Positions 5,118 through 59,475 of a stretch of 64,000 bases of DNA are shown here, piece after piece. Under the pieces are notes generated by a model. That model did no database searches. It was not told where the DNA came from and saw nothing but the letters and a program-made list of their open reading frames with translations. This DNA is from Diphasiastrum complanatum (lineage: Eukaryota > Streptophyta > Lycopodiopsida > Lycopodiales > Lycopodiaceae), in NCBI GenBank assembly GCA_029204225.1, contig CM055111.1, positions 5,031,403-5,095,402 of the forward strand, given 5' to 3'. Each line of letters starts with the position of its first letter. Position 1 is the stretch's first letter. The position numbers were made by a program, and so were the translations under genes.

Positions 5118-6885
5118 ATCATGAAAAATTGGAAGGCTTCAGAGATAGCTTTAGGAAATAGACAGCAGTCCTCCTGGAATAATCATCTATGATAGTAATA
5201 AAGAACTTTGCATCAAGTAAGGATGGTGTCTGCATTGGGCCACATATATCAATATGCACAATGTCTAACATATCTCTAGAAATATATTCTCGATTTGACT
5301 TGAATGGTCTCCTTGCTTGTTTTTCTTTGATACAACTTGAGAAGATAGGGAGATTGACAATTTTACATTCTAAATCAAGAACTGAAAAATGTTTAGACAT
5401 GTTATCTATTGATGTATAGTTAAGGTGACCAAGTCTATTATGCCAAATCACTTCTTTATTCATAGATGTCAAACTACTCAAAGTACGATCAGTCACAACA
5501 TTACAATGGCTAAGCCTATAGATATATCCTTGTCTCTTTCCGAGTGCAAGAACTCTCCTACTCTTATCAAGAATTTGACAGGAATATGTCTAAAACTCTA
5601 CCCTATGTCCTAAATCTGTGATTTGACTGACTGACAGTAGATTTGTTGTCAGATTCGGGACATACAATACATTTGGCACAAGCTTTGACATTTCATTATA
5701 AAAATTCATCCTAACAGTACCTTCACCTTCAATTATATGGGAGCTGTTGTCTCCGAGGTGAACAAATTTCTTGGTGATGTAGGCCAAATAGTCGATAAAC
5801 CATTCTTGATGGCTTGTCATGTGTTGTGTTGCTCTAGAATCAAGAAACCATTCTTTTGACTATTTGACATGACGATGGCTCACCATGAAGACTTCCTGCT
5901 CCTCATCATTTTCGATCTTTTGCTTGGTGTCGGCTGCATGAGCTTGCTGATTCAGCTACTTCTTCTTCTTGTCGTTGTTGAACTTCAAGACTCGACATTC
6001 CTGGATCTCATGATTTGGTCTCTTGCAATACCTGCGAAAGAGTCTTTTCTTGTTGTTCTGAGTAGGGGGCTGATTTTGGAACTTTTGTGACTGCTTTTGA
6101 TTGTTGTCATTCTGTTTGACAGCTTTCTTCTTTTGTTGCCTCCTTGAGCCCTTCTTTGAGAATAATGCTTGTGAGTCATTGATGGAGGATGAAGATGCTC
6201 CACCTCTTTCCTCCTGCAGCAACATAGTTATGACTCTAGATAATGTAATGCTTGAGTGTGTGGAAATCATCATCACCCAGTTTTAAAAGGAGAATGGTAA
6301 GCTTGACAATAAGGTCATTACAACATCAGAGTCTTCAATTGTTGAACCTATTGCTGCCATATGATCCATTAGAGTCTTAAATTCATTTATGTGATTCTGA
6401 ACAGAATCACCATTTGACATTTTGAGAGAGAATAATTTTCTCCTCAGATGCAGCTTCGAAGTGACATCTCTCACTTCATATAATGTACTCAATATATCCC
6501 AAACTTCTTTCAATGATTGGGCTTTTCTGACCAATTTGTGTGTCGGAGATGTTAAGGGTGATCAAGGCAAAAGCCTTGCCATCCCTGAGCTTCCATTTGG
6601 AAATGGCTTGCTCATTGACACTGATAAGTAGTTCGATTCTAGCGACAATTTCCCACAGTTCTTTGGCCATCAATACTACTCTCATTTTGAAGTTCCATAA
6701 ATGGTAATTCGAACCATCCAGTTTATCTACCATTAGAGCAAACTGTGATTGTGAATCCATTTGGAATTTCAAGATGAGTATATGCAAAGAGTAGATTAAT
6801 ATGACTGAAAAATAATAGTAGCAACTACCTACACTATATACTTTGGATCCGCTTTTAGGAATCAGAGAAGGAGCTCTGATACCAT
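5118..6885 (-). pseudogene. Truncated Ty1-copia retrotransposon (gag, protease, start of integrase)
   Basis: Read on minus from 6885: a primer-binding site, gag (6940-6283, with the DGSNYHLW-type N-terminal motif and a UBN2-like region), a basic region with a zinc knuckle (about 6060-6000), an aspartic protease (about 5850-5590), the GAG-pre-integrase motif WHNRLGHLN, and the first part of integrase (HIDICGPM, then IIDDYSRR). The frame is split into several pieces by frameshifts. The first knuckle Cys is Arg (RYCKRPNHEIQEC instead of C-x2-C) and the protease DSG is DSR (LDSRATQH), so both are dead. Integrase stops at 5118 where the gag-only element begins. No reverse transcriptase or 3' LTR is present. 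Confidence 0.88.
6872..6884 (-). other. Primer-binding site of the 5-7 kb copia element
   Basis: Minus strand reads TGGTATCAGAGCT directly after an LTR end ...CCCAACA (LTR 3' edge at 6885). This is the initiator-methionine tRNA complement used by most plant copia elements. The 5' LTR should extend upward from 6885, but its far end could not be placed because no second copy exists here. Confidence 0.8.
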
Positions 6886-6959
6886 GTTGGGATTCGACAA
6901 GTGGATCAACCTTCAATGCCTGTTGCAACAAAAGCAGCATCAGTGATCATATCTTGCTA

Positions 6960-7308
6960 GTTTGACCAAAAAATTCAAAAAGAGGCTTGCCAATTCCATC
7001 TATTTGAGATCTAGTCAGCTTTTTGAGGTCATAGCCACATTATTTCTTACAATTCCATTGTATTGGAGCGATTTGTGGATTCTCTGTGTTTCACACGTGC
7101 CAAAGATAGTTTGACCCAAACTTTTCCTATACTCCATCAATTGATGAGAGGTTGATCTAGTTTGAGAGAGATTGGTAGAGCTAGTGAGATCCATCTCACA
7201 TTTGTTGCAAGATCTTGCATAGGAGTTGGTAGTACACCTTTATTGGATCCTATAGTGAGAGATAAGCAACACTTTATTGTCTAATTCACAAGGAGTCTCA
7301 ACCATTAC
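6960..7308. other. Sequence between two copia remnants, no gene
   Basis: It probably contains part of the minus copia 5' LTR and the leader of the plus copia gag that follows. No open frame, LTR boundary or RNA gene could be supported. Confidence 0.4.
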
Positions 7309-8190
7309 ATGCCATCTATGGGTTCCTTTCTATTGGAATCTAGTGAGAGGCTATCTACCTCCAACTATTCTTTTTGGAAGGTTAGAATGGAATCTATATT
7401 GATACTTCAAGATGTGATAGACATTGTACTTGGGATTGAGGAGGAGCCTCACTTCCTCCAAGAAGTAAAATAGTCCAAGAAGAGAGCTAGGATGGCTCTC
7501 CTTTATATCAAGATGAATGTCTCTAATGAGATTTTGAGAGAGATTGGTACTTCGACCAAGGATGCTTGGGATACTCTCAAAGCAGTCTATGAGGCCAAGA
7601 ATACCTCAAGGCTCCTCACTCTTAGAAATCAAATCTTCGAAAGTTCTCAAAAGAGTGATGAGAGTGCCACTAATTATGTTTTGAGAGTGAAAGATATTCA
7701 TATGGAGCTTGCTTGTATTGGACATTCCATCAAACAAAGTAAGCTAGTCCAAGTCATACTCAATGGTACGAAGGATGAATATGAGAATCTTGTCCAATCC
7801 TATGCTATCAAGGAGGAGCTACCAACCTTGGAGGCCTTGCAAGGAGTGCTGAAGAATCACAGCATGGGAACAAGCTATTAAGGATGGACAAAATGTCACT
7901 CAATCATATTGGTGATGGCAAATTTCTATTTGCCAAGCACAAAGAGAGGAGCAAAAAGCAAAACCAACACTTCTCTAAGGACAAAGCAAAAGACCAAGAT
8001 GAAGAGGATGATGATTCCTCTCAATATTCTACTTTAGATAAGAAGAAAAAAGATGTTAAGTGCTTCTTTTATGACAAGAAAGGCCAATATGCCACCAATC
8101 GCTTCAAGAAGAAGAACCAATTCAAGCAAGCCAACATCTCTCATGAGAAAGAAGACTTATTGCAAGTGATGAAAAATGCTCACTTATGGC
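7309..8190 (+). pseudogene. Ty1-copia gag remnant
   Basis: From ATG 7309 the frame has a SNYSFWKVRMES motif, as in copia Gag N-termini, then one in-frame TAG (7471). A UBN2-type segment follows, with KDAWDTLKAVYE and LTLRNQIFE. The frame ends at 7879-7881 and restarts at 7884. The expected CCHC zinc knuckle near 8057-8110 is ruined: CFFYDKKGQYATNR has lost two Cys and the His. From about 8190 the sequence stops looking like copia and becomes AC/TTT-rich repeat. No protease, integrase or reverse transcriptase follows. Confidence 0.8.
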
Positions 8191-8552
8191 AAGGATTCCT
8201 TTTCTTCTATTATTTATGCCTTATAAATGAATCAAGAAGTCCATATATATTGCAAGTGATCAAGTGTGCAGAATTCTATTTTCATGAGTTAAATTGTTTT
8301 AAAGGCACCTTCACCTTTTTGAGAGCACCTTTGCCTTTTAAGAGCACCTTTAGCTTTTTCGCAAAATCCCGAAGAGAGGAAAAATGCCGAAGGTCGTCTA
8401 TTTTGAACGAGGAACGTTCCCAGTCACTTTTCAAAATTTGCGAAGTGAGAGAAAACCACTTCACGTGAAATGCGAAGTGAGAGAACTTGCGACGTCCTTG
8501 TCTGCATCAACATTCCTAATTCGTTGGTAGTATACACTATGTACAATTGTCA
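8191..8552. other. Repeat-like sequence, possible LTR fragment
   Basis: Words such as 'ttttaaaggcacc', 'gcacctttgcc' and 'ctttttcgcaaaatc' resemble the minus strand of 12450-12650, which is inside a copia LTR, so this may be a diverged relative of that LTR in the opposite orientation. No gene. Confidence 0.3.
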
Positions 8553-9234
8553 CAAAAGCCATATACTTCCAAGTACAACGACTTACCTAATTAGGTGACA
8601 AACATTTAATGTAGTTAATACATGGATGCAATCTATAAATAGATCATCCCAATACAGATTACTTGAGATGCTCCATCCATGAGACAAATGATTTTGAGCC
8701 TCCCAGTTACGCCGTCATTTTGGTTATAATTGCTATTTTATTGTGCTTCAGTGTAAGATAGCAGCAACATGCTTTTCTATCTGTGTATAATGTAGATGAA
8801 TGCTTGTTGTGATTGAATGCACTTTATTGTTCTTTGATCGTGCTTGTTTACTCACTCTGATCAGATTACAGACGTCTATGACTCCTTCGCTTCTGATCAG
8901 ATGATGACTGTCTTTGACGCCTGAGGAACTCGCAATATCATACTGCTCTTTTATCTATTTCAGAACCAAATTTCACATTGAATCCATTTTTCAGTAATAC
9001 CACACACAAACCATTTCTAATCTCTTTGGTGGACTATACTCTTCTTTTTGTGAGTATAAATTAATTTTTAAGATCCTGTTGGGCAATTAAAACACTTAAA
9101 GTTGTGATTATATTTAGCATAAGCTTTCTATTAGACTGTTTTTGCATCTAGCAACTGATTGTAATGGGAGAGCTATTCCGCAATATTCCTACTCTCTTCT
9201 CCGTTCGCGTTCTTCTATCTCCCTTGCCCCATCA
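8553..9234 (+). repeat. 5' LTR of the 8.5-11.8 kb copia element
   Basis: Closely matches 11127-11795 over its whole length, with scattered substitutions and small indels. It ends ...CCCCATCA directly before the primer-binding region. The left terminal TG seems to have changed to CA, judged from alignment with the other LTR. A TATA-like TATAAATA sits at 8634-8641. Confidence 0.88.
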
Positions 9235-9237
9235 GAT

Positions 9238-9250
9238 TGATATCAGAGCG
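9238..9250 (+). other. Primer-binding site
   Basis: TGATATCAGAGCG lies four bases after the LTR end. It is one base different from the copia consensus TGGTATCAGAGC (complement of initiator Met tRNA). Confidence 0.75.
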
Positions 9251-9302
9251 TAGCTCATATAAACCGAGAGATTAAGTGTGTTTTATTTGTATTATTGTTA
9301 GT

Positions 9303-11119
9303 ATGTCTCATATAGGTAGCTCTTCGTCTTCATCATCTAGTGAAGCTAGAATCATTGACAAGTTCAATGGTTCTAACTTCTACATCTGGAAGTTAAAACT
9401 CCGGATGATGTTGATACATAGAGATCTTTGGGATGTAGTAGAACATGTATCACACTCAATCTGGCCGACTCCCAAATATCCCATGTTACCACACATGCAA
9501 AACCTCTTAGGACGCATTAGATTTGTTATCAAATCTCTATGAGACTTATGATGTAACCACTAGATGACATCTGAGAAGGAAGTTCTTTACTCTTAGCTTG
9601 TCTGATTCTATTGCCATCACTTCTCACGTCAACAGCTTCAAGTCTTTATTGATCAGTTATCAACTATAGGATGTTCTATTCAAGATGATGATGTCGTCAT
9701 GACCTTGCTTTCTTCTCTTCCAAAGTCATATTATGAGCACTTTGTGGTGATGATCTCTACACAACCTGACCTCACTCTTCAAAAGGTGATCGGTCATCTT
9801 CTTCAAGAAGAAATACGAAGAAAGACCAGCGACTTGTCCATCAAAGACAAATCCATGGCCATGTACACCAAGAAGAAAAAATATTCCAAGGGCAAGAATC
9901 AAGTGCAACATCAACAACAGAAGCCTCATATTCAAGGTGAGAATAGTGAATCACGAAAGAAGCTTTTCTGTAGATATTGCAAGAGAGCCAATCACGACAT
10001 CAAGGAGTGTTGTATCCGGATCTACAACAAGACAAAGAAGCAACAACAGCAGTACCCAGACTCCTCCAACTCGGCAGAATTCAAGGAGCAAGATACACAT
10101 TTATTAATGGCTTACGACAACAACAACGAAGACTGTGATAGCTGGTACCTGGACAGCGGCGCTACCCAACACATGACCTCTCGCAAGGAATGCTTACAAC
10201 AGAGATCAATTCATCTACCTAGGAGATTCAAGCACCATATGTGTTGAAGGCAAAGAGACAGTCAAGATCACATTCAACAACGATCTATCTATTTGTGTTT
10301 CCAATGTCCTTCACGTTCCTCAGCTATCAAAGAACCTATTATCAGTCTCTAAGATAACTAATGAGGGCTACACTGTTACTTTTTCATCTGAACAGTGAAC
10401 AATATTCGAGGAAGATACTACTCTAACTGCATGCACTAGAATAAAAAATCTTTATGTACTTTCTAATTCAGTTGCATTATCTAGCATCTCTCATGAAAAT
10501 GTAAAAATGCTATTTTGTGGCATAGTCGATTTGGACACGTGAATACAGGATCACTTTCCTATATGCGTTGTAATAAGTTAGTTGATGGATTGCATTTCCC
10601 TTCTTCATTAGATAGGAAATCTTTCTTTTGTGAATCATGCGTCTATGGCAAACACTCTAGAAGCAAATTTCCCAAATCACATTCCATCAAAACAAAGCAT
10701 GTATAGGATCTTGTACATAGCGATCTTTGTAGTCCAATGCCAACTCCGTCCTTAGGAGATGCAATCGATTTTATCACTTTCATAGATGATCATATCTACA
10801 AAAGTGAAGGCACTTTGAACTGATGGTGGCGACGAATACCTCTCTAACGAGATGTCTGACTACATGGCTGAACATGACATTAGAAGATAGTTCACCCCTT
10901 CCTATTCACCTCAAAAAAATGGGATTGCAAAAAGGAAGAATTGAACTCTTCTCAACTCAGCTGGATCCATGCTACATCAAGCACACCTACCTGCGAAGTT
11001 CTAGGCAGAAGCTACTGCCACAGCCTGTTACATGCAGAATAGATTCAGCACCAAAGCCGTCAACAACAAAGCTCCTCATGAAGTTTGGCATGGGCACAAG
11101 CCTAGTGTCAGCCATCTAA
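9303..11119 (+). pseudogene. Internally deleted copia gag-pol
   Basis: Pieces in order: gag start (SSSSEARIIDKFNGSNFYIW, to about 9542); gag middle and an intact zinc knuckle CRYCKRANHDIKEC (9699-10020); protease with intact LDSGATQHMTS (about 10145-10180); a frameshift at about 10240; protease tail (LHVPQLSKNLLSVSKI); GAG-pre-integrase WHSRFGHVN and CESCVYGKHSR (10515-10660); integrase start (DLVHSDLCSPMPTPS) after an in-frame TAG; then integrase tail fragments ending at 11119. The ATG at 9303 is preferred over 9276 because gag homology starts there. Its gag and knuckle resemble the minus copia at 5-7 kb, so the two are related families. Confidence 0.85.
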
Positions 11120-11126
11120 TAATCTT

Positions 11127-11795
11127 TGGAAGCCATATACTTCCAAGTACAATGGCTTACCTAATTAGGTGACAAATATTTAATGTAGTTGATACATGGA
11201 TGCAATCTATAAATAGATCATCCCAGCACAAATTACTTGAGACGCTCCGTCCATGAGACAAATGATTTTGAGCCTCCTAGTTACGCCGTCATTTTGGTTG
11301 TAATTGTTATTTATATTGTGCTTCAATGTAATATAGCAGCAGCATGCTTTTCTATCTGTATGTAACGTAAATGAATGCTTGTTGTGATTGAATGCACTTT
11401 GTCGCTATTTGATCATGCTTGTTTACTCACTCTGATCAGAACATGGACGTCTACGACTCCTTCGCTTCTGATCAGACGATGGCTGTCTTAAACACCCGAG
11501 GAACTCGCGATATCATACTGCTCTTTCATCTATTTCAGAACCAAACTTCACATTGAATCCATTTTTTAGTATTATCACACACAAACCATTTCTAATCTCT
11601 TCAATGGACTGTACTCTCCTTTTTGTGAGTATGAATTATTTTTAAGATCTTGTTGGGCTAAAGCTGTGATTATATTTAGCATAAGCTTTTATTAGACTGT
11701 TTTTGCATCTAGCAGCTGATTGTAATGGGAGAGCAATTCCGCAATATTCCTGCTCTCTTCTCCGTTCGCGTTCTTCTATCTCCCTTGCCCCATCA
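11127..11795 (+). repeat. 3' LTR of the 8.5-11.8 kb copia element
   Basis: Begins TGGAAGCCATATAC and ends CCCCATCA; near-identical partner of 8553-9234. It retains the TG terminus lost in the other copy. Confidence 0.88.
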
Positions 11796-12245
11796 CATCT
11801 CAAATCATATCTATTGAAGATTATCAAGATGTGACGTATGATTTCAAGAGGATCTTCAAAATGGATGGCCAAGTCTTTATGGCTCATCTTTTATGGTAAA
11901 GAGAGGCAAGTTTCAAGTTGTATCCACTTTAACATTCTCACTTATGCTACTCTTCCATTACTTGATGTACTATCTTGCTTTATTGAGATTTCTACATCTC
12001 AAAATTCATGTAAGACAATTCTAGTTTTGGATGATGCCTATAGTATGGACATATTACTTGTCATTCATGGCTTAGATATGTTTTCAAATTACTTAGAAAG
12101 CAAGTGGTTGAGTCATCAACTGTATGCTCTTGGATCTAGTAAGAGCAAAAATGAGTACAATGGCTTGAAGTAATAACTTCAGCTTGCTGAGCGTGATAAT
12201 GCTGGCTACAGATAACTCTGATTTAAAAAGAACACTTACATAGCT
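11796..12245. other. No recognisable gene
   Basis: A frame of 111 codons on plus (11838-12173) and one on minus have no recognisable motif. The stretch may be older repeat sequence. Confidence 0.35.
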
Positions 12246-14583: not shown

Positions 14584-14588
14584 GAACC
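14584..14588. repeat. Left target-site duplication GAACC
   Basis: Identical to 27018-27022 and directly abuts the LTR TG end. Confidence 0.9.
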
Positions 14589-15816
14589 TGTTGCGTAGGC
14601 ATCCCAAAGGGAGCCGGGAACCACGACTTAGCTTCCTAGCCTTCAACTCTTGCCATCCAAACCCACTTGACATACAAGCAGCCAACTCAGCAACAACGAT
14701 CAGACTTAACCAACTTGAAGTTCTGAAAACCAACATTGAGATCCAACCTGGCGCCATGCCAGATCGGGGGTCCCGATGTGGGTGACTTCCCTCCAAGCAA
14801 GCCGCCCGACATACATCAAACTTAACCAACTCGAAGCTTCGTTACAAACGAGTAACATCCATTCCAAGCAAGCGGTCTGACTTACATCAGACTTAACCAA
14901 CTGAAAGCTTCGTCACGAGCGCTGGAAGCCAACTTGGCGCCACGCCAGACTGGACAACCATAAACAGGTAATTTCCACCCAAGCAAGCCATCCAACTCAA
15001 CCGATAGGTTAGAGCCTGTTCCCCAAGAGCTTAACCCATTCACGTTCATTCAAGGAACACTCAGAACCACAAGCCGTGACAGATATGGAGACAACTAGTT
15101 CACGGACCGAATGGTCTCGACAGCATACCGCTGGCGCCACGGACCAAATGGTCCCGACGGCATACCGCTGGCGTCCCGGGATACGACCCTCAGCTATGTG
15201 CCAACTTAAAAATTTTGAAGCGGCCTTACAACTGGCGCTTTCACCGAACACTGAAACCCAGAAGGTAATCAGTCAGTTTGAGGAAAATCCCACTTTATTG
15301 ATAAATCTGAGAAGGTTACATTTCAAGTGTGTGACCGACCCTAGTCTCCGGGGCGCTAGCATGCCAAGGCGAGAGCCATGACAACATTCCAGCAAGGGAG
15401 GCTGAGACTTGGTTGGAGCTCGCCCTGAGTCGCAACCCACACTCCCCTATAGTATTGTGTGATTCGGCACTCCCCTCATACCAAGCACTCTACCCAAGCT
15501 GGTAGAGCACATTTTTCTCTCTCTAGAATTTTCTCTTTCTAGAAAGTCATTTTCTCTCTCTAGATTTTATTGATCCCCAGACTTCCTTTAATCATGCCTA
15601 GATCGTGTGAGGTGTTTGCACATCGATCTGAGCTCTCTGGACTCCGCTAGAACCGATCAAAGATTTTCAGCCATAGGAACTTGGCGCTGGCTGGATTCTA
15701 GTCACAGTGGCGCCGGCGCCGTTGGCGCCGGGAGTAGTAGGGGCGCTGCTGGTGTCGGGGAAGTAGCTGGTGCCAGTGGCGCCGGAAGTAAAGCTTGTAA
15801 AGGTAGCTTTACAACA
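14589..15816 (-). repeat. 3' LTR (by element orientation) of the 12.4-kb element
   Basis: Matches 25787-27017 along its whole length with a few differences per hundred bases. It has internal imperfect tandem repeats: units around 'cttaaccaactcgaagcttcgt' words (14770-14960), a doubled segment 'gcataccgctggcg' (15110-15180) and a cluster of GGCGCC near 15705-15785. ORFs seen across it on both strands recur in the partner LTR and are not genes. Confidence 0.93.
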
Positions 15817-15829
15817 TCCACCCCACCTT
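15817..15829 (-). other. Purine-rich tract next to the 3' LTR
   Basis: On minus the bases before the LTR TG are AAGGTGGGGTGGA, a G-rich, mostly purine stretch in the position of a polypurine tract. Confidence 0.6.
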
Positions 15830-15835
15830 GCACAC

Positions 15836-17147
15836 ATCAAAGATTCCAATGAGCATTGGGTGCCCCACACATTTTCAACTTTTGACTGGGTTTACATGCA
15901 ACCATCGGGCAAAGGAACTCACAAGGTTGCAAAGAGGAAGCGAAACAACCAAGACTACCATTGGAAAGGAAGGATCCACGAATTCAAGATCGACCAAAAC
16001 GGTGAATACCTTGCAAATGTGCAACACGTATACATGCGTTGAGATATTTTATTGGATGTGGCTGTTGCTGATAGAACCATACAGTCACATTGTAAGTCTC
16101 ACCTCTTTTATTCTTGTGTTAACTATTATGTTTGAATTATTATTATGTCATTGTAATGGATAATAATGTTGCATTGATGCCTGGTGCAGATGTCTTTCCT
16201 TCAAATAGCTTTGACTGGCAAAACGTGAAGTCCTTCACTGAAAAATTTTCCGCCATACACGCCAAATATGGAGAACAAATATATGGTGGGTTGGCATTCT
16301 CTGCCCTAATCAAAATGGGCATTTTCTTTTACGATCACATTTACGAAGTTCCAAAAAAAAACTTTGGCCAAGGCAAATTAGCACTAACTTCTGAGCCTGC
16401 GATCAATTCTCACGAGTGGCCATATGTTGACCAACTGACTATTGAATTAACAAAGAGGCAACTTCTCAAAGAGATTATTGGTAATATGAAGCCAACATTC
16501 GGATCCAAACGAGTCTACACTAGCATCTCTGTGCCGATCACCGTATTTGTTGCCATATTTAAGGCGGTCCCCTTTAGGAAAACAAACACGATGTGGGCAT
16601 GGAAAGCAACAGAATCATCATTGTTGGACAACATATTTGTCGCATGGGATTCAAAGGAAATGGAGCATAAAGGAGATTTAATAAGGTGTAAGCTCTCTTG
16701 TGAAACAATGACCATAAGGTATCATATTTCACATCAAACATGCTCCTTAAGTTTCATTTATAGGCGATATAAGTTTGGTCATGGTCGATGGGACCCTCTG
16801 GACGCGGAGACGAATCAGCAAGAAGTGGAGATATCCATACATTTGCCCCATGATGAAATACGAGAAATTCATATAAATAAGGAGTGCAGCCTAGAAGATC
16901 TTCGGCATATGCTTGGATTGACTTTTGTTGATGTGCCAGTAGATTTTGTCTTCACTCGTAATGGACAAAATGTGAGTCCCTAATTTCCATCAGATTCCTG
17001 AATTTTAAATAGTAATGTTAAGTAAATATAGGATTATTAACTTTGTGTCTGGTTTTGCAGATACGGAGACAAGCCGAAAAAGATCATGAATGTGTTTCAT
17101 TTTTACAAACAGGGACATTAGGAGTCCAATGGGAATACAGGATTTAA
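15836..17147 (+). pseudogene. Cargo gene A: unknown protein, 5'-truncated, three exons
   Basis: Exon 1 is open from about 15836 to 16091 and includes the motif HWKGRIHEF, with an in-frame TGA at 16040. Intron 1 is 16092-16189 (GTAAGT...GTGCAG). Exon 2 is 16190-16971, containing DVFPSNSFDW, then a long mixed region with SHEWPYVDQLTIELTKRQL. Intron 2 is 16972-17060 (GTGAGT...TTGCAG). Exon 3 is 17061-17147, ending at TAA. Phases join cleanly at both introns, which supports this model over the alternative frame from 15828. The C-terminal part (EIHINKECSLEDLRHMLG ... VDFVFTRNGQ) looks like a small ubiquitin-like or beta-grasp fold, but that is a weak impression. The gene starts directly against the element's purine tract, so its 5' end is probably missing. 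Family not recognised. Confidence 0.6.
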
Positions 17148-17373
17148 TCTAATGGAAAATAGAAAACACAATTAGTTGGTTGTGTTTTGACTCTATTCTA
17201 ATATATTTGGTTACGTTTTGACATTACTTTTGCGTTGTCACATTTTATATGCCTGTTACTACATTTGTGGATGTCCAAGGATTTTTACTCATGAGCCTAG
17301 ACAAGAATATATTATATTTGGAAAAGAGGCCAAAACTTTTATAGGGACACTTACTAAAAATAGAACCCTTCAC

Positions 17374-17381
17374 TATATAAG
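17374..17381 (+). promoter_or_regulatory. TATA box upstream of the H3-like gene
   Basis: TATATAAG lies about 130 bases before the ATG at 17508. It is followed by a pyrimidine-rich leader without ATG until 17476, which fits a short 5' UTR promoter. Confidence 0.5.
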
Positions 17382-17507
17382 GGTGCTTGGGTCCTCATTT
17401 CTCCACTTCATCCCTTGAGTGTCAGAGTGTCAGTTTTTTTAAATTCTCTGTTTTTCATCTCTCGTGTTCTCTGATATGTTTTCAAAGGCTAACCAATGTC
17501 GGAGGAA

Positions 17508-18717
17508 ATGGCACGGACGAAACAAACGACTAGAGATTCCAAAGTGACTGCATTGCTCCATAGGGATGCACTAGCCACCCTCGATGAGAGAGAGAGAGAC
17601 GAGAGAGCAGAAGCAGGAGTAGGAGTTGCAGCCCTATAGCAGATCCGGCCACTCAACGTGAAGCTGAAGAGGACATGGCCCATACAACAGCTGCACAGGA
17701 GGACCAGACTGAGCAGCAGTAGCAAGAAGACCAGCAACAGCAGGAGGACTAGCAGCAGCAGCAGCAGCAGCCAACACGAGAAAAAAGCCCTTCCCCGACG
17801 GCAACTGAACGGGAGGAAACAATGAAGTTCCTAGATGAGGAGCTTGCGGCATCGGGTGAGTTGCCGGTTCTGAATGATTCTTTCTTCGATCCATTTCCAC
17901 CAGCAATGGGCATGGACACATCAAATTTAGGCATATCGAGGACACCACACCCACCGTGTCACCTCCAAGTCATGGCCCGATGATGGGTCCAATGATGTCG
18001 TTGCTGGTGGGTGGTTCTGATGAGGGCAGTCCGATGTCGAACACAACAACGATGAAGCAGAAGGCGACCCATAGATGGTCAGAGAGAGGAGCACACGAGC
18101 GAAAAAGAAAGAATCCTTGCAAGGCTGGGTCTACATCAAAGTGACGGAACCCTGCAGCTCAGGAGCCATCACCACTGCCCACACCGCCAACATCGCCTCC
18201 ACTGCCTCCACCTCCACCACCTTCGCCCCCACCGCATCCACCGCCTCCACCGCCACCTCCACCACCACCACCTCCACCACCACCACCACCATCACCACCT
18301 CCAAGTTCTGCCGCAGCTGGCCCAAGTAGGACCGTAGAGCGTGGTAGGGATAGGTCGGCCCCTCGTGCAGCACCATGGGCTGGAAAGGAGCTCCGCAGGA
18401 TGCAGCCACCACCTCCTCGACCGCGTAGGAAGCGCAGGATCGCAAAGTGGCTCTAGGATATACGGAGCTATTAGAAGTCCGTAAAATTTTTGATCCCTAG
18501 GGCCCCTTTTGTGAGGCTTGTAAAAGAAATAGTCGATGAATTTTCCTTGGGGAACAGAGTTACGGCAGATGCGGTGTCCGCAATACAAGAGTCTGCGGAA
18601 ATGTACCTAACGCAGCTCTTTGAGGACTCATTTTTGTGTGTAGTGCACGGGAAGAGAGTCACAATACTCCCGAAGGATCTCCACCTAGCTAGAAGGCTAA
18701 GGAGAGAGTGGAATTAA
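17508..18717 (+). pseudogene. Cargo gene: histone H3-like protein with a very long tail
   Basis: The frame at ATG 17508 begins MARTKQTTRDSK, almost the canonical H3 N-terminus; an ATG four codons upstream (17496) is in frame. The C-terminal third (about 18430-18717) is a full H3 histone fold: DIRSY, the stop where H3 has Q, then KSVKFLIPRAPFVRLVKEI, AIQESAEMYLTQLFEDSFLC and KRVTILPKDLHLARRLRREW. Between them lie over 300 codons of low complexity: a poly-Gln run (17700-17775), the acidic patch MKFLDEELAASGELPV, a long poly-Pro run (18175-18305) and basic clusters. Two frame changes (about 17635 and 17937) and stops at 17720, 17750, 18142, 18454 and 18472 break it, unless unseen introns repair it. 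Loop 1 has canonical H3 length, so it is not clearly CENH3. Stop 18472 replaces the conserved Gln of YQKS. Confidence 0.8.
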
Positions 18718-19183
18718 AAATATCATGTACATGATTTTATTTATAATATACTGAAGATTTGGTGTCAAGTATCTTGCAGAATTTCAGGTTGTGTGAATGC
18801 AAATTGTTGTGATTGAGTTTGATATCTGATTTCAGTACTGTTTATGTGAATGCAGTCATTTGAAAATTTTAGTATCATCTATGTGAATGCAGTGATTTAA
18901 AATTTTTCAGTACTATGGGAATGGTAGTTTCTTTAACCATGTTGTAGATAAGATAGGTTTCCATGTCGTGGCATGGAAATCACGCCAGGGCGCGACCAGG
19001 GCCCGTTTGACCAGGTCAAACGGCGCTGGTCGTGCCCTGGCGTGAAAATCACGTCACGTAAAAAAAGGAGGAGAAATCTTTATCAGAAAAAAAATTAAAT
19101 TCTAAATTCAATAAATTAGCACATCATATAATGACAACAGAGAATTAGGAGAGTCCACAAGAAAAAAAGGACAAAATCTTTAT
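18718..19183. other. Gap between convergent cargo genes
   Basis: AT-rich sequence flanks the strong hairpin at 18981-19044. No ORF. Both neighbouring transcripts point into this gap, so it should contain their 3' ends. Confidence 0.6.
18981..19044. repeat. GC-rich hairpin between convergent genes
   Basis: The left arm starts CACGCCAGGGCGCGACCAG and the right arm ends CTGGTCGTGCCCTGGCGTG. The arms are about 31 bases with only a few mismatches and almost no loop, set in AT-rich surroundings. It could be a 3'-end or termination structure for both gene pairs, or the remains of a small inverted-repeat element. Confidence 0.9.
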
Positions 19184-20655
19184 TCACATTTGATCCATTT
19201 CCTTCAGAGAGGACTTCAGCTTCTCTGATCGCTTCTCTGATGACAAAACTGGTTTTAACATTTCTAATGCTAATTTAGGAGCATCTCCCTCATCCTCATA
19301 AGGGCCAATTAAACCCGAGAGAATGAGCCGGGTCTCGAATCCAGGGCAAAAAGCATTCAAAACGGCTTTTTGGAGGACACAGTAAGCCTTTGGCACTGAC
19401 GGTGACATGTCTAGCTCACCAATGTGCTTGGAGAGTGCTTTGCATTTAAGAAGCTCTGTCTGTCCATCTGGCCTGTACTTGTTGCTGAAGCAGAAAATAA
19501 AGTTGTTGGGCAAGTTCCCAATGTAGTGGGCCATAGACCTGTCCAGAGTCCCTACTTCAACTTTCTCCCGAGAGCCACCCCTTCGCATTGCAAATGCATC
19601 AAGCTCCACTGCATCCTGCATTTGGTTCAAATTATTGCAAAATGAGTATAATGAAGACAAACAAAAATAACAAACACATGCAAGTTGAATTGTTGGGTCA
19701 GACTTGCCTCGGTGCCTTCATCAATGTCTTCGATTTGCGCAAGGTTAATTCCTTTGCCTTTGTACTTCATGTCAGCAGTTTTTCCTTCGAGTACCTCGAA
19801 TGGCCTCGTTTGAACTGGTGGTGGTTGAAGCGTTTTCAATCGGCAAAGCACCCTTGCCAGTGCTTGCTCGGTGGTGTCCGTGTCATGCCCGATCAGCTTC
19901 GCATACGTGTCGTCGGGCTGGGTGTGGTTGAAAGTGGAACTGCCATTCTGCAAATTTACCAATGCTGCCAGCATCTCATCTTCTCGCAAGCCGAGAATAT
20001 GTTGCAAGTCATGCATGAACACATACTCCTGCCCATCAATGATGATTGGAACAAGGCCATGGATTCGAAGCACGACATCATCGTACTCATCTATATCTTC
20101 TGGCTCCGCTGATGTGGATGCACATGTTGCCTCTTGCGCAGCCAAGGTTGCTTCGTGCTCCACAGATAAATCTTCCTCTTCACCCGGGTCGTTCATCTCG
20201 TTCACCTGCTCACTAGGATTGTGTTTGTTGCTGGCCACAGTCGCTGGAAACTCATTAAGCAAAAAAATAACAGTAATCTCACCGGAGAGAAACTTCTTTC
20301 CTACACTTTCAAGATCAAAAGTTTTCATCTGATCCTTTGTCAGCTCCAAGTAATGATCGTTACCCAAGTGACTAATAAATCTGTTGAGACGAGCGATAAA
20401 GAGTCTATCTCCTTTCCATATATAACTAAGCAAGTTATATGAAATCCATATGATAGCTGAGCCAGGAATTTGTATGGCATAAGGCTTCAAAGTCTCATCT
20501 ATATACTCACTCACGTACGTGAATGCATCCGTATTAGCCCGTAGAGTGGCAAGTGTGTCTATTCTACCGGTAAACATACAATAAATATGATCTAACTGAT
20601 CTAAAAACTCTGTGGGGGCTAGCAGATTGGCCAACTCTATTTTAGGGGACGACAT
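19184..20655 (-). CDS. Cargo gene C: intact unknown protein, 459 aa, two exons
   Basis: Start ATG is 20653-20655 (MSSPKIELANLL); a TATA box lies upstream. Exon 1 is 20655-19708. The intron uses a GC-AG pair (GAG|GCAAGT ... TGCAG|GAT). Exon 2 is 19615-19184, ending at TGA. The junction is phase 0 and no stop or frameshift is seen. The first 170 residues are mixed alpha/beta-like without a signal peptide. A disordered acidic linker follows (NDPGEEEDLSVEHEATLAAQ ... EPEDIDEYDD), then a compact segment (IHGLVPIIIDGQEYVFMHDL, LGLREDEMLAAL), and a C-terminal half ending KSSLKEMDQM. No domain recognised. It is the only cargo gene with a fully open frame, so it may be the youngest or most constrained. 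It shares orientation with the LTR element and with gene D. Confidence 0.7.
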
Positions 20656-20782
20656 TGTTATGCAACTAAGAACACTAATTGACCAGCAAACTAGTAGTCT
20701 AATTGAACAAGACAAGCTAAATTACGAGGAAACAAATTTCAACAAAGCAAGAAGTGACAACAAAATGAAAACCCCCACTCTT

Positions 20783-20790
20783 ATATAGAG
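20783..20790 (-). promoter_or_regulatory. TATA box upstream of cargo gene C
   Basis: On minus, CTATATAAG about 130 bases before ATG 20655, a spacing very like that of the H3-like gene promoter. Confidence 0.5.
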
Positions 20791-20920
20791 GGACGTGTAT
20801 CCAAAAATAGATATTATTATAAAACCAAATAAAATAATTTCTATTCATAACAACAATCCAATTCGACAGTAATATTTATCACAAAGGAATATTTGAATTA
20901 CAATTCAGCATAAATTGTTT

Positions 20921-23596
20921 CTATTCCATCTCATCAGTTTCTGTAGTTTCTCTAGCGCTGTTTTCCAAAACATTGGATGTTGGTGTCCTCGGCATCCATC
21001 TCTTTCCAACTCGGACTCTAGACATCCTCCATTCTTGATGCCTTGTTCTAGCATTAGAGGATTGCCATGCTGTCTCTCTGACTGAATTTGAACTGGAGAT
21101 CATTGAACACAACTCTTCAGTTCTTGTGTTTTGAAAGTGTCCTCGGCCCAAAACTCCTCCGTAAAACCATTGGAATATCTCAACCAATGCATTGCTAAGA
21201 ACCTTTCCTCCGCCATGCCGTGATTTTTTTGAAATACGCAGCCTTTGCCCTGTAATGACTCTTTTCCATGCCTTGCGTATTCCAAATAGCTAATGATCCA
21301 TAGGTTTTCGTAAACCAAGGTCCATGAGTATAGATGATGTGCTGTTTATAGAAAATTTGTATTAGTTTAAATCTTTACAAATACATAAATATGAAAGTAA
21401 AAAATATGAGACACACATACCATATAGTGAGTTATGTGTGTTTCTCCCCATGCATCGATCATCAATTCAGTAAATGTTTTGACTTCTCTTGCGTATCTAT
21501 CCAAATCTTCATCTCTCACAATCTTTTTGTTGATAGTTTGTGACAAGGCATCAAATGCTTGCCAAACCTTAGCACATGTACTTGCCATGCGAGGATCTGA
21601 GCCAATATTTGTTGTGCATTGACATATTTTCCTCCAGTACTCCCATTCAACACTGCTTTCACGTGCAGTATGATTTGACAATAGGTGTCTCGCTTTCGCA
21701 CCACCCATTGAAACTTTTGCTGGAACATCTTGCATTTTTCCACTCATCTCAACGTCTTTGGTAAGACTCACGTGGCCCCCGTGCAATCCCATATCGGATA
21801 AAATTATCTCTAGATTTCTAATGCTAACATCTGCTCTTGATTTGGGCTGCATGTTCCATGCGTAACAACAATGCAAAAATAATAAGTTGTCCAGTATTCT
21901 TAATTCACCATGCATTGTGCAAAAATGGACTCTTTCGAGAGGAATGTTCAACACAGGACTCCAAGCTTTGTCTAGATTGTGCCTATTTGGTGGAAGACGT
22001 TGGTTGCAATTCAAAATACTTTTGTTCCGCCCAGATTCAAACATACAATATATACAAAAATTCTTTGCATTTGCACCGAGACCACAACCGTACATGCATT
22101 TCAAAGTCTTCAAATCAGCAGCTAGGTGCCATTCTACAGCAAAGCTTTCTCCTTCAACATTGAGCAATTTGCCTTCATTTTGTGCATGTATTATCTTAGA
22201 TATACTGCATTTTTCAGATAGCCACTCCAGTACGTCGTGAGACTCCTTAGGAACTTCAAATGCAGCTATCCACCATATGTGATTTTCGGATTGCATGCTA
22301 AATTCTTTACAATAACTTCTGCCAAACTGTTGCAATTCACGATTCATCAAGGTGATTGTGACACGTTCAAGTTTACGCCCTTTTACAATTTCTGCTTCGT
22401 CCAACTTAATAACAAATATAACTTTACCTCCGCAATCTGTAAAACAGAAATTTCATTACTAAAACATATTAGTTGAAGAAAAGCATACTATTGAAAACCA
22501 AAATTCACAATAAATGTTCTTACCATTTGTTCTAACTCTGTAATGTCGGATCATCATCGCTTGAACCTTTTCCAGATCTAAGAATATATTATTGCCTTGA
22601 TGATAACGAAAACATGTCGGAGGTCCTTTCTTCTTATTGGTTATTGTAAAAGAAACTCTCATAATTCAGAGAGCAATATCGAATTGCATTCTTGTTTGGC
22701 GGATTTGACAAGTTTATAAGTAGGTATTATTTGATGGCGTTTTAACCCATTTTTGTCAGAGCGTTTCATATACTTCTTCAAAGCTCTATACCCCTTGCGA
22801 CTCACACCTCCTTGGTCACATGCATACACCATCTCTTTAACATTTGGATTTGGCTTGAACTTGTCGACTAGCTTTTTTGCAATTCTCAAGCGAATTGAAT
22901 CACTTGTTTCATCTTCCACAATCTTAATCAAATCTTTACCCTTCAAAAAATGTTTCATATATTTTTCGGCAATAAAATCTTTTCCAACCGTCTTTTTCAA
23001 GAACTCTTTTGTGTCCCTCATATGTCTTTTACTGGCACCACCACCTGGTGCCAAAGCTTCTAGTTTGTGTCTCTTAGTGTTTTCATTTTCTGCTTGCTGA
23101 TCCATCGAGACTCTACGGTTTTGTTGTAAGCCATATATTGTCCTCTGAAATATACTGATTGAAGATAGCAATTTTTCAACTTTTGCGACAGAACTGACAA
23201 GCTCTATTTTCAAACCATTTATCTCCTGCTCCAATTTCATATTTATTCCATGCAATGACTTTAAATTGTCATTCATACTCAATATATAATGTTTGCCGTA
23301 TTTGCCAATGTCTCAGCTTGAATTCTTCGAGAATCCATTGCTTGACAATAGCCAAGCAGTCCATTCCGACCATCCCCAACGAACCTTAACAAACTATGTA
23401 CATCAGAAAATTTAGGAGGAGCATCTACCAGTGGATTATGAGGGTATAAATCACCTCTTACCCATAGGTCAATATGTTTTTTTCTTTCTAATCTCCAACA
23501 ATGCATGTCATACGGATTTAAGTTAACACCCCATGCAGCTTTGGTGGTCGCATAATCCTTCTCTAACTTCACATGTAAGTGATACTTGGTTCTCAT
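20921..23596 (-). pseudogene. Cargo gene D: transposase-like protein, frameshifted
   Basis: Minus exons: 23596-22524, 22436-21421 and 21341-20921, joined by GT-AG introns with matching phase. Exon 1 holds an N-terminal part (MRTKYHLHVKLEKDY), a likely coiled coil (MKLEQEINGLKIELV) and a basic region. It is broken by shifts near 23280 and 22660; exon 3 has another near 21220 in an A-run. Exon 2 has candidate acidic residues in VIKLDEAEIVKG and EWHLAADLKTLKCMYG, then a Cys pair CIYC and FCTMHGELRIL. Exon 3 has LAIWNTQGMEKSH followed by HGGG. The order D, D, C-x2-C/H, E resembles large DDE-type transposase-like proteins that I recall from repetitive families; this is a motif-level inference, not a confirmed family. 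Upstream exons beyond 23596 may exist. Confidence 0.6.
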
Positions 23597-25019
23597 CTTG
23601 AAGATGTCGAATTATCCAAAAGAATCTATGTAGAATAGTAGAAACACACCTTAATCAACCTTGTGTCAAAGTTCAATGTGAACTAACCATGATATAAGCT
23701 TTATTAGGCATATACTAGTTTCCATCCCTAGGGTCCTATTGTAGTTAGGACAATGAAAGGTCGTCCTATACTAACCCTACTCTAGTTGTAATTTGTAACT
23801 TACTTATTAGTTGCCTATTATAGTCTATGCAAATAACCTACAATAGTCTATGAAAATGAGACCTACATTTAGGCCTTAACTCTTGCTCACCTTGTATGGT
23901 AACCCAAGGTAAAGGTGCCACGTAGGATTGATTAGCACTAAATTAATTATGATTAGAAAACTTGTTTAGGCAAGGAAGAGGCCCTTTTTGAGTCCAAAAA
24001 GGGCCCTAATGATCTCAATGCGAACTGTCCCTTAGCATCCGTTCGAAATACCAAGTCTCTCATGCAAGACTCAACTTTCACAGTTCCTTCATTGATCAGC
24101 TGCCTTACACGTAACACAAGCCAGCGTACTCATATGTTTCCTCATCGTTGCTGGTCCAGAGAAAGCCTATAACAAGCTTTTCTTTCCACAACAAAAACTT
24201 GTCAACTTATTAGATCCAAAGTTCGCCAGTCTCCTCGTGTGAGTATGGCTAGGTCACCTTGGATTTTCCCCCGTTTTGATCAACTTTCATTCAAAATTTG
24301 CCCCAAGAGAGAGGTGTGTGTGATAGTTCCCCTCCACTTATAAAATCAGCTGATCGGATTTAGAGTAGAGTTCTTCGGACAAAAAGCCTTTCCAACACTT
24401 TGCTTCCCATCTGCTAGGATTATGGCTCAATCCAACTTGTTGCCAATCTCTGAAGAGGATCCTAGTCTTTCCCCTTTGAGGAAAAACCCAACTGATACTG
24501 GATATCACCCATGCTCAGTGAGTTTTTAGTTCTGAAGGTGGCCGTCCCAAAATGAAGACCAACTGCTCCATAGAAGATCTCCCCTGAAATTGCCCTTTCC
24601 AACTTTTGACTTCCTGCTTGCGTTTGGTGGGCGTTGTCGCAAATGAAACCAACCCAAGAAACAGGCTAGCCATCCATCCTTTGCAAACATTGAGTCGTTT
24701 CGTTGCCGTTCACGTGCGAGTACTTGAACTGCAAATCCGCCCCACAGATTCTGTAGTCCTCTTTGTTTGATGGTATCAGCCTTCAAAAAAAAGGTTCCTT
24801 CTCGAGCCATCAGCTCCTTGTATCACAAGCAATCATGCAAACCAGGCAAAGCACGAGTACTAAGACTCACCACGAATACATACAAGTAAGACACTCAGGC
24901 AGGTTTACTAACAAGTAACAAAGACAAGGTCCCCCTTTGAGATGGTCCTGCCAACGGACCTTTGCCTGGCCGTGCCCATACAAATCGATCACAGAATCAG
25001 CCCACATAGGACACCCCTC
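23597..25019 (-). other. Non-coding internal region (leader) of the 12.4-kb element
   Basis: No gag or pol motif on minus, where they would be expected downstream of the primer-binding site. A 94-codon minus frame (24810-24526) has no recognised domain. It includes short direct repeats and C-rich sections. Confidence 0.5.
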
Positions 25020-25700
25020 CAACTATCCGTGCTTTCACCATTAAGCAGCACATTGCCTTAGTCACGCCCCACCACTTTTTGGTCGATAGCCCTTATAGCT
25101 AAACAATCGGCAGCTATCCTTGAATATACCACCCCCGTGGACGCACCCGTGCTTTCACTATTAGGCAGCACATTGCCTCAGTAATGCCCCCACCAAATCT
25201 AGTCGATAGCCATTATAGCTAAACGATTGGCAGCATACCCCCAATCGTGGACGCACCCGTGCTTTCACTGTTAGGCAGCACATTGCCTCAGTAACGCCCC
25301 CACCAAATTTGGTCGATAGCCCTTATAGCTAAACGAATGGCAGCTATCCTTGAATATACCACCCCCGTGGACGCACCCGTGTTTTCCGTGCTTTCAGCGT
25401 TAGGCAGCACATTGCGTCAGTAACGCCCCCACCAAATTTGGTCGATAGGCCTTATAGCTAAACGAACGGTGGCTATCGCGAATATGTCACCCCGCACCCC
25501 ACAAGGCACAGACCATGCTTACACCAACCTAATGGCAGCACATTGCCTCATTTGTCCTACGTGCAGACGGCGCCAGGCCCGAACCGCAAAAACTGACCGT
25601 GCTTACACCTCAAGGGCAGCAACTTGACTCATCAAGCCCCCGTTCTGCCAACCACCCCGACCATGGACGCACCTGTGCTTACACTGTGGGCAGCACCTTG
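25020..25700. repeat. Tandem repeats of about 75-130 bp in the leader
   Basis: Units begin with variants of 'ccgtgctttcac..ttaggcagcacattgcctcagtaacgcc' near 25028, 25147, 25257, 25387, 25512, 25597 and 25672. They also share 'ggtcgatagcccttatagctaaac' and 'ataccacccccgtggacgca'. The last three units are shorter and more diverged. They lie between the primer-binding site and the cargo genes. Confidence 0.85.
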
Positions 25701-25771
25701 CACAACAGTTGTCTTGATGAACCCCAAACAATGGCCATTTCCGTGAGATCCGCATAGCTGACCGGCCAGTT

Positions 25772-25784
25772 GGCTCTGATACCA
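25772..25784 (-). other. Primer-binding site of the 12.4-kb element
   Basis: Minus strand reads TGGTATCAGAGCC two bases after the LTR end (...GCGCAACA at 25787). It is complementary to initiator Met tRNA and sets the element orientation as minus. Confidence 0.88.
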
Positions 25785-25786
25785 CA

Positions 25787-27017
25787 TGTTGCGCATGCAT
25801 CCCAAAGGGAGCCGGGAACCACGACTTAGCTTCCCAGCCTTCAACTCTTGCCATCCAAACCCACTTGACATACAAGCAGCCAACTCGCCAACAACGATTA
25901 GACTTAACCAACTTGAAGTTCTGAAAACCAACATTGAGATCCAACCTGGCGCCATGCCAAATCGGGGGTCCCGATGTGGGTGACTTCCCTCCAAGCAAGC
26001 CGCCCGACATACATCAAACTTAACCAACTCAAACCTTCGTTACAAACGAGTAACATCCATTCCAAGCAAGCGGTCTGACTTACATCAGACTTAACCAACT
26101 GAAAGCTTCGTCACAAGCGCTGAAAGCCAACCTGGCACCACGCCAGACTGGACAGCCATAAATAGGTAACTTCCACCCAAGCAAGCCATCCAACTCAGCC
26201 GACAGGTTAGAGCCCGTTCCCCAAGAGCTTAACCCATTCACGTTCATGCAAGGAACACTCAGAACCACAAGCCGCGACAGATATGGAGACAACCAGTTCC
26301 TGGACCAAATGGTCCCAACAGCATACCGTTGGCACCACGGACCGAATGGTCCCGACGGCATACCGCTGGCATCCCGAGATACGACCCTCAACTACGTGCC
26401 AACTTAAAAATTTTGAAGCGGCCTTACAACTGGCGCTTTTACCGAACACTGAAACCCAGAAGGTAATCAGAGTCAGTTTGAGAAAAATCCCACTTTATTG
26501 ATAAATCTGAGAAGGTTACATTTCAAGTGTGTGACCGACCCTAGTCTCCGGGGCGCTAGCATGCCAAGGCGAGAGCCATGACAACATTCCAGCAAGGGAG
26601 GCTGAGACTTGGTTGGAGCTCGCCCTGAGTCGCAACCCGCACTCCCCTATAGTATTGGTGTGATTCGGCACCCCCCCCCTCATACCAAGCACTCTACCCA
26701 AGCTGGTAAAGCATGTTTTTCTCTCTCTAGAAATTTCTCTTTCTAGAGAGTCATTTTCTCTCTCTAGATTTTATTGATCCCCAGGCTTCCTTTAATCATG
26801 CCTAGATCGTGTGAGGTGATTGCACATCGATCTGAGCTCTCTCGACTCCGCTAGAACCGATCAAAGATTTTCAGCCATAGGAACTTGGCGCTGGCTGGAT
26901 TCTAGTCACAGTGGCGTCGGGAGCGACGCCGGGAGCAGCAGGGGCGCTGCTGGCGCCGGGGACATAGCTGGCGCCAGTGGCGCCGAAAGTAAAGCTTGTA
27001 AAGGTAGCTTCACAACA
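25787..27017 (-). repeat. 5' LTR (by element orientation) of the 12.4-kb element
   Basis: Partner of 14589-15816, same TGTTGCG...CAACA ends. Differences from the partner are scattered single bases and small indels (for example in the C-run near 26670), so insertion is recent relative to the copia remnants nearby. Confidence 0.93.
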
Positions 27018-27022
27018 GAACC
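27018..27022. repeat. Right target-site duplication GAACC
   Basis: Identical to 14584-14588 and directly abuts the LTR CA end. Confidence 0.9.
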
Positions 27023-55462: not shown

Positions 55463-55893
55463 TATAGGAAAAATAGTAATTATTCTTCCACAAAGAACAC
55501 AATGCAAGTTTGAATAAATCAAAATAATATCAGTGTCTTCAATCGCGATTGTATTTGATCTATGTACTAATAGAACAGTGTTAGTTCTGATTGAATATAC
55601 GTGCAAAAATTGTATGTGAAAGTAAGAGACAACTTAAGACAATTTAGATAATAAAAAACTATTGGATTTTTATAACTCTGAATCTGATTCATCAATATAC
55701 ATCTCTTGTTGTCTTATTTCACTATTGTGTCGCTGATTGAGTGAGTGACAACGAGTAGTGCACATGTATTTATATTGTTGAAGGATAGGTCTTTTGGCCT
55801 TTTAATGTTGTCATAGTAGATATCTAACCGTTTACAATGGTTGATGTTCAAATAGACGCTCTGTTTCCAGGCTCGAATAAAATCTATTCGCGA
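55463..55893 (-). repeat. Partial 3' LTR of the nested copia element
   Basis: Matches 58610 to about 59080 ('ggaaaa.tagtaattattcttcca', 'gatctatgtactaatagaa', 'tctttggccttttaatg' type words). The terminal TG is TA here, and the other end is lost in a deletion. Confidence 0.85.
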
Positions 55894-55918
55894 ATAAAGT
55901 GTAGTTGATCCCATACGT

Positions 55919-58440: not shown

Positions 58441-58596
58441 TTCTGGGTCCAAGATTGTTATGATCTTAGCTTGAATATTGGTGATCGACAACATCTTTTA
58501 ATTCTGAATAAGCTCCAAATAGTGGCTTACTAATGGATGTATGAAGAATGTTGAGAGGGATGCGAAGTTACCACTGTATCAACTTTAATTCTGTAT
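58441..58596 (-). other. Copia leader and gag start, degraded
   Basis: Between primer-binding site and recognisable gag. Short, no intact ATG frame. Confidence 0.4.
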
Positions 58597-58608
58597 GCTC
58601 TGATACCA
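58597..58608 (-). other. Primer-binding site of the nested copia element
   Basis: TGGTATCAGAGC on minus, one base after the LTR end ...TTCCTACA. Confidence 0.85.
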
Positions 58609-58609
58609 C

Positions 58610-59475
58610 TGTAGGAAAATTAGTAATTATTCTTCCACAGAGAACACGATGCAAGTTTCAATAAATCAAATTAATATCAGTGTCTTCAATCGCGATTGTA
58701 TCTGATCTATGTACTAATAGAATAGTGTTAGTTATGATTGAATATACGTGCAAAAATTATATACAAAAATAAGAGACAACTTAAGACAATTTAGACAATA
58801 AGAAACTATTGATTAAGAATGAATTTTTATAACTCTGAATCCGATTCATCAATATACATCTCTTGTTGTCTTATCTCGTTGTTATGTCTCTGATTGAGTG
58901 AGTTACAACGAGTAGTGCACATATATTTATATTGCTATAGGACAGGTCTTTTGGCCTTTTATTTATAGGTCTTTTGGTCTTTTAATGCTATAACAGTAGA
59001 TATCTAACCGTTTACGACGGTTAATATTCAAATAGACGTTCTATTTCCAGGCGCAAATAAAACCTGTTCGCGAATAATTCGCGACAGTTCATCTCTTCGT
59101 CTCAGCTTCGTGTTTCGCGACACTTGTCTCTTCGCGACATTTTCATCTTTCGCGAATTGTTCGCGACATATGACAATTCTTGAGCTTGAAAAAGAAATCT
59201 AGAATATTTTGCAAATTGTTTGAGATAGTTTTGCGACAAGTGAGCTTGAAGAACAGTCCAGAAGATTTCTCAAATTATTCGTGACAATTTTGTGACATCT
59301 GAGGCTTGAACAAGAAACAGAATATTTTGCGACAAGATTCTGTTCGTGAATCTTTTGAGCTTCAACAAGAAAGCCATGAGCTTCTACAAGAAACTGTTTC
59401 ACAAATCTTTCGAGTTGACTGCAAGACAAATCTCGCGAATCGTTTGTGAATTTTTTCGAGTTGGTCACAAATAGA
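58610..59475 (-). repeat. 5' LTR of the nested copia element
   Basis: From TG 58610 to about 59475, where the host copia reverse transcriptase resumes. The distal part has many 'ttcgcgaa'/'gcgaca' words and repeated 'gagcttgaa.aagaa' units, so it holds internal short repeats. The exact TG edge near 59475 was not fixed. Confidence 0.75.

Follow-up and report, generated by a model that had tools for sequence, protein, structure and literature searches.

A histone H3-bearing DNA transposon with a predicted RAG1-like transposase fold, nested in a long terminal repeat element of Diphasiastrum complanatum

The locus and the question

How does a histone gene come to lie between the long terminal repeats (LTRs) of a retroelement? 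The question is raised by a stretch of 64,000 nucleotides from the lycopod Diphasiastrum complanatum (contig CM055111.1, positions 5,031,403 to 5,095,402; hereafter the window), in which a pair of LTRs encloses a histone H3-like gene, a transposase gene and two further genes, A and D. The original prediction, made from the letters alone, had named this set and left two readings of it: either a retrotransposon captured the genes, or a gene-rich DNA element inserted within the retrotransposon and was later trimmed. We find three stacked events, namely an LTR insertion, the insertion of a DNA transposon and a deletion, and the second reading holds, since the DNA element is untrimmed in the other haplotype and its site is empty in other LTR copies. 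Such a nested insertion is ordinary; what is new is its content, an H3-bearing DNA transposon with a transposase of remote, predicted RAG1 fold.

An LTR retroelement of about 5 kb, of the type called LARD, the term for non-autonomous LTR elements, first inserted on the minus strand and generated a GAACC duplication. A DNA transposon of 8.8 kb with four genes, presumably of the cut-and-paste kind, then landed in the LTR interior without a duplication, and the window haplotype was finally trimmed by the loss of 1,417 bp at a junction with 2-bp microhomology. Together with cut-and-paste movement, and with a role of the histone that is argued more weakly below, this is an account in which we have great confidence.

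Two haplotypes and an empty site

The other haplotype is represented by contig C3010, which has 99.3-99.4% identity across two long blocks, flanks included, and 1,417 bp more than the window at window position 15827. The extra DNA contains, in order, the 0.83 kb of LTR-family interior missing from the window, then CATTAGGGCCCTTTTTGGACTCAAAAGGGCCTCTTC, then gene A beginning with its start codon. A complete DNA transposon of 8,802 bp occupies C3010:30723-39524, with terminal inverted repeats of 36 and 37 bp that begin CATTAGGGCCC and are common to independent copies of the transposon; the inverted copy of the CATTAGGGCCCTTTTTGGACTCAAAAGGGCCTCTTC repeat is found at window 23975-24011. What the window haplotype lost by the deletion is the left inverted repeat together with the DNA on either side of it, 0.83 kb from the interior of the LTR element and the first part of gene A; CCACCTT is thereby fused to GCACACATC, TT being common to both sides of the junction. 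The parts of the transposon that remain in the window are as follows.

15830..24011, strand not assigned: remnant of the nested DNA transposon, from the comparison with C3010
15836..16980, plus strand: gene A, about 2 exons (approximately 15836-16115 and 16186-16980)
17496..18717, plus strand: H3-like gene, with an H3-type N-terminal tail, a Ser/Arg-, Gln- and Pro-rich linker and an H3 histone fold
19187..20721, minus strand: gene D, overlapping frames of 364 and 177 amino acids
20924..23060, minus strand: transposase gene, about 4 exons (approximately 23060-22680, 22605-22522, 22437-21422 and 21341-20924)
23975..24011, minus strand: right terminal inverted repeat, 37 bp (its left counterpart, of 36 bp, is lost from the window haplotype)

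A search of the assembly (1.74 Gb in 5,176 contigs) provided the site before insertion. In five other copies of the LTR family, CTAGTCCG or CTAATCCG is directly followed by ATCTC, at the place that is filled in C3010; the insertion point therefore lies between CCG and ATC, and no duplication arose. The original prediction had asked whether the cargo has inverted repeats and target duplications of its own; it has the former, and no target duplication was seen. As a point against our account, the duplication measures 0 bp, unlike that of Transib (5 bp) or CACTA, in four independent insertions (the C3010 allele; the fetched copies L030 and L031, which share flanks and count as one insertion; C22; and C1/C17). 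Both inverted repeats could be read in three of 10 end pairs (C22, C1 and C17, of which C1 and C17 share flanks), and in the other seven there was a single end, no end or a spurious match.

Could the four genes instead have been picked up by the LTR retroelement, through transduction or template switching, and now be moved by it? Taken by itself the window invites the idea, as the genes stand between intact LTRs with a common GAACC and gene A starts some 20 bp from the LTR; however, that closeness is due to a deletion private to the window haplotype, and the C3010 allele already contradicts capture. The genes have inverted repeats of their own, form two pairs on opposite strands with their introns kept, and occur in many places of the genome without this LTR, whereas the five other LTR copies read at the site lack them, so that cargo and LTRs do not always travel together. 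We regard capture as extremely improbable.

The LTR element and its family

The LTR element has paired LTRs with TG..CA ends, a primer-binding site, a polypurine tract and a target duplication.

14584..14588, strand not assigned: target duplication GAACC, left copy, from the flank sequence
14589..15816, minus strand: 3' LTR (left), from the LTR pair comparison
15817..15829, minus strand: polypurine-tract region, after which the LTR-element sequence breaks off at the deletion junction (TT microhomology of 2 bp)
24012..25786, minus strand: 5' internal region of the LTR element, including a minisatellite with units of about 110 bp
25773..25784, minus strand: primer-binding site TGGTATCAGAGC
25787..27017, minus strand: 5' LTR (right), from the LTR pair comparison
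27018..27022, strand not assigned: target duplication GAACC, right copy, from the flank sequence

The left LTR (1,228 bp) and the right LTR (1,231 bp) agree at 95.1% of 1,225 aligned columns (Kimura two-parameter distance 0.051), and with GAACC on both outer flanks the predicted LTR pair and duplication are borne out. The primer-binding site lies just internal to the right LTR on the minus strand, and therefore the element reads from right to left and its right LTR is the 5' LTR; a purine-rich tract, in the minus-strand reading, adjoins the left LTR. Both signals had thus been recognised from the start, in the reverse orientation. Matches to the primer-binding site with at most one mismatch number four in the window, 0.26 being expected by chance; a tRNA scan was empty. 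An allele lacking the LTR element did not turn up and the C3010 haplotype is also occupied, so the 5-bp duplication is read from the two flanks alone.

The interior between about 15830 and 24011 is mostly foreign to the LTR element, and none of the nine interior frames scanned has a retroviral Pfam domain, as had been predicted. In the LTR-derived interior of the window the longest entry of the frame list is 98 amino acids, this part lying outside the Pfam scan. With the left LTR as query, 40 matches were scored of 5,509 first-look candidates, with 93-96% identity in most of the matches listed. The mapped copies have a 5' interior like window 24011-25786, then the 0.83 kb or so absent from the window, then the polypurine tract and the LTR; the best measured, on C12, is 4,982 bp in all. 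Ordinary gag-pol in the other copies had been expected for simple nesting; instead the mapped copies have about 2.5 kb between their LTRs, which, judged by length, is too short for it. The element is thus a member of a high-copy, non-autonomous, LARD-like family of about 5.0 kb. It shares with LARD-type elements the LTRs, the primer-binding site, the polypurine tract, a short non-coding interior and many copies, and nothing in it is unusual for them; it is one further member.

Two observations concern the family. The minisatellite, at 25027-25466 in the 5' leader, consists of units of about 110 bp that vary in number among the copies. A family copy on C21 (L014, 1-6348) contains a nested LTR-flanked element with a 1,203-amino acid gag-like frame and identical 109-amino acid frames near both ends.

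The transposase

The transposase gene has GT-AG introns at two places. Relative to C3010 its window copy has a 16-bp deletion, and both haplotypes have a frame change near 21229. Homologues number 71, the one named being from the fern Ceratopteris richardii; relatives were found neither in viral contigs nor in prokaryote genomes. The structure model of one homologue (P0001, without the last exon) has an RNase H-like DDE fold with an all-helical insertion as in RAG1 and Transib. The catalytic D, D and E were assigned by alignment. Motifs of C(2)C and H(3-4)H type stand between the second D and the last E so inferred; the window gene and P0049 have them as CIYC and HIIYTH or HILYAH. The region around the last E aligns to mouse RAG1 with 9 of 26 residues identical (E 2e-4 in a single comparison).

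Several results weigh against our account of the transposase. The transposase matched no Pfam family, that of RAG1 included, and a sequence-profile search of solved structures with the transposase family gave 0 matches. In addition, the pooled ratio of nonsynonymous to synonymous differences (pN/pS) among close copies, with L031 left out of the comparison, is 0.68 in the transposase core and 1.26 in the N part, without clear constraint. On the structure model, the transposase nonetheless is best described as a remote family of predicted RAG1/Transib fold. As fold and anatomy suggest, it would move the element by cutting and pasting, through the DDE/zinc-site mechanism that the CACTA-Mirage-Chapaev-Transib (CMCT) group uses.

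Linkage of the transposase and H3-like genes

For the transposase 13,715 candidates yielded 113 scored matches, of which many have 92-97% identity and an open frame; for the H3 core 150 were scored of 5,259 candidates, those listed being 78-100% identical to the window copy; for gene A the matches number 138, with 136 scored out of 8,257 candidates. At least 54 of the 113 transposase matches have an H3-like match on the opposite strand no more than 6 kb downstream, at a distance of 1,606-3,261 bp (median 2,721), and a single one has it on the other side, on either strand. Six large copies were fetched from the top of the transposase match list, which biases them to well-kept copies; one of these (L032) stops short of the H3-like gene, and all five that reach the region (L029, L030, L031, L033 and L034) have the H3-like frame. 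Eight further slices taken at the expected place contained the H3 core in seven cases, three of them partial or broken (L055, L058 and L059); its absence from the eighth, L056, counts against our account. Linkage of the two genes across diverged lineages, together with purifying selection, suggests a job for the histone within the element and not an accidental capture.

Five of the top 20 transposase matches lie within 0.6 Mb on C15 (31.28-31.87 Mb), two of them sharing an end flank with L029, which suggests a local segmental duplication.

The H3-like gene

The H3-like frame of the window matches PF00125 (E 5.8e-24), and its core aligns ungapped with plant H3.1 over 78 residues, of which 43 are identical. 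The window copy of the gene is disrupted by a number of in-frame stops and frame changes. Other copies have it as one frame of about 408 codons, with one stop in L034. A distant lineage on C13, whose transposase is 75% identical, has an H3-like protein that starts MARTKQTAR, with a linker only weakly alike (37% in a gapped match). Its core shares 77 of 111 residues with that of the window lineage, while synonymous sites are saturated (pS 0.85) and pN is 0.21. The comparison of these lineages shows strong constraint on the H3-like protein. Among copies, the pooled pN/pS of the gene is 0.51, and its length changes relative to L034 (C3010 4, 12 and 1; L029 1, 15, 3 and 6; L030 9, 9 and 3; L033 18, 33 and 9) are multiples of three in 11 of 14 cases.

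These data bear on the view that the gene is a passive passenger, a fragment of host H3 caught once, as in fungal hAT elements with inactivated copies. Fungal hAT elements did capture H3, according to the parts consulted of PMC6710886 and PMC3538342, and all five fully read frames hold at least one stop (C3010 five, L029 three, L030 one, L033 two and L034 one), which weighs against a working protein; the C13 copy is likewise broken, by one stop and a frame change. But the core is only 43/78 identical to plant H3.1, and therefore the capture was not recent; between lineages synonymous change is saturated and protein change low; and an open frame of at least 290 amino acids surrounds the core in 36 of the 150 scored matches, reaching at least 380 in six. 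We consider a mere passenger unlikely. The stops are decay: the changes involved, CAG to TAG and CGA to TGA, are those that cytosine methylation, which we infer, would produce. Reading TAG as glutamine, an idea raised by stops at Gln positions of the frame, was rejected: other copies have Gln there and stops elsewhere.

What might such a protein do? K4 is kept in all five tails read (C3010, L029, L030, L034 and C13; L033 was outside this set), K9 in none, Asp or Arg standing there, and by eye the five readings contain no ARKS (K27-type) motif. A point against a conserved tail is that the exact ARTKQTAR occurs in none of the four lineage-1 tails, one residue differing in each. Given a tail with its K4 context intact and no K9, we favour a role in chromatin: the protein would be a long-standing helper, most likely keeping the element accessible or unsilenced, and we hypothesize that it helps the element to escape silencing. 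In a fuller version the family has long kept its own H3, with linker and histone fold; nucleosomes made with it on transposon DNA could receive the active mark at K4 and not the silencing marks at K9 or K27, and the element would thus supply chromatin resistant to silencing to its RAG1-fold transposase. This version seems to us doubtful as it stands.

RAG2, the partner of RAG1, reads the H3 K4 tail, and the H3-like protein could in a similar manner partner the transposase, for example as a DNA-bending or tethering subunit acting through its histone fold and K4 tail. That the element itself encodes a K4-bearing tail speaks for this; on the other side, no RAG2-like gene was recognised, and neither gene A nor gene D matches a Pfam family at the cut-off. 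A partnership of this kind is a rather improbable alternative to the chromatin role that we favour.

Two repeats lie 3' of the H3-like genes. In the window, a 37-bp imperfect inverted repeat with an 18-bp loop (18967-19058) lies at the convergence of the two gene pairs, flanked by the H3-like gene and gene D. At about the same place in the distant lineage (L062, C13:7885900-7887400) there is a tandem motif of repeated RGADRG/ARARTE-like pieces.

Genes A and D

Gene A has lost its start codon in the window and has an in-frame TGA where C3010 has Arg. Its C-terminus gave a weak PB1-like score, below the cut-off, and a BAH domain, suspected by eye, had no support on testing. One homologue was found elsewhere (P0072, 70% identity), itself without relatives in viral contigs, and structure prediction from the two sequences returned no usable model (predicted local distance difference test score 28.5). 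Gene D is present in L029, L030, L033 and L034; outside this genome no homologue was accepted among 5.8 billion proteins (7,997 candidates scored). Pooled pN/pS among copies is 0.35 and 0.34 for the exons of gene A and 0.51 for gene D.

Other features of the window

Frames like pieces of Ty1/copia gag-pol, assigned to family by eye, occur at 5122-12170 and 55717-61385, with primer-binding site matches at 6873-6884 and 58597-58608, both on the minus strand. WD40-repeat exons are found at 39405-40107 on the minus strand, and we take them to resemble TOPLESS-type co-repressors.

Comparison with known systems

With RAG1 and Transib the transposase shares the predicted fold, the C(2)C and HxxxxH motifs between the second D and E, and a last-E stretch that aligns with mouse RAG1. 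It differs in having no profile-level match, termini CATTAGGG and no 5-bp duplication, the length typical of Transib. Searches of Creative Commons-licensed PubMed Central papers brought up no report of RAG1-like elements in plants, and the transposase would add to the relatives of the V(D)J recombinase known so far.

CACTA/EnSpm elements have CACTA termini, a 2-4-bp duplication and a Pfam match of Transposase_21 type; here we found termini CATTAGGG, 0 bp and no Pfam match. The C(2)C and H(3-4)H motifs between the second D and the last E are shared with the CMCT group, as far as the sources consulted in part describe it, and the element differs from the group in that no target duplication was seen. 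In the portions of PMC12730594 available, Lanisha is called similar to EnSpm, and TET/JBP chromatin genes are reported in fungal transposons of several groups, CMCT-type included.

For a transposon-encoded protein with a proposed action against silencing, the VANC anti-silencing proteins of Arabidopsis VANDAL transposons are a parallel (PMC5735166, PMC10398659); as portrayed in the excerpts of these papers they are sequence-specific DNA binders and no histones. Viral histones are a further precedent, according to part of PMC9145170. A plant transposon with a histone gene did not come up in searches of Creative Commons-licensed PubMed Central papers.

The nearest systems in gene content are fungal hAT DNA transposons with H3-like genes, H3L of Pyrenophora tritici-repentis and that of Pseudocercospora fijiensis (PMC3538342, PMC6710886). 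From the sections of these articles at hand, they share with our element the inverted repeats, a transposase, a further frame without assigned function, an H3-like gene and many copies; they have an 8-bp target duplication in P. fijiensis, and H3 copies that are near-identical to each other or inactivated by repeat-induced point mutation (RIP). Neither a hAT transposase nor an 8-bp duplication is found here. Instead, the Diphasiastrum element has a transposase of predicted RAG1/Transib fold, a 0-bp duplication, an H3-like frame of about 400 codons with a long linker, and constraint between diverged lineages, and with it the question of whether transposons use histones of their own to shape silencing chromatin becomes testable.

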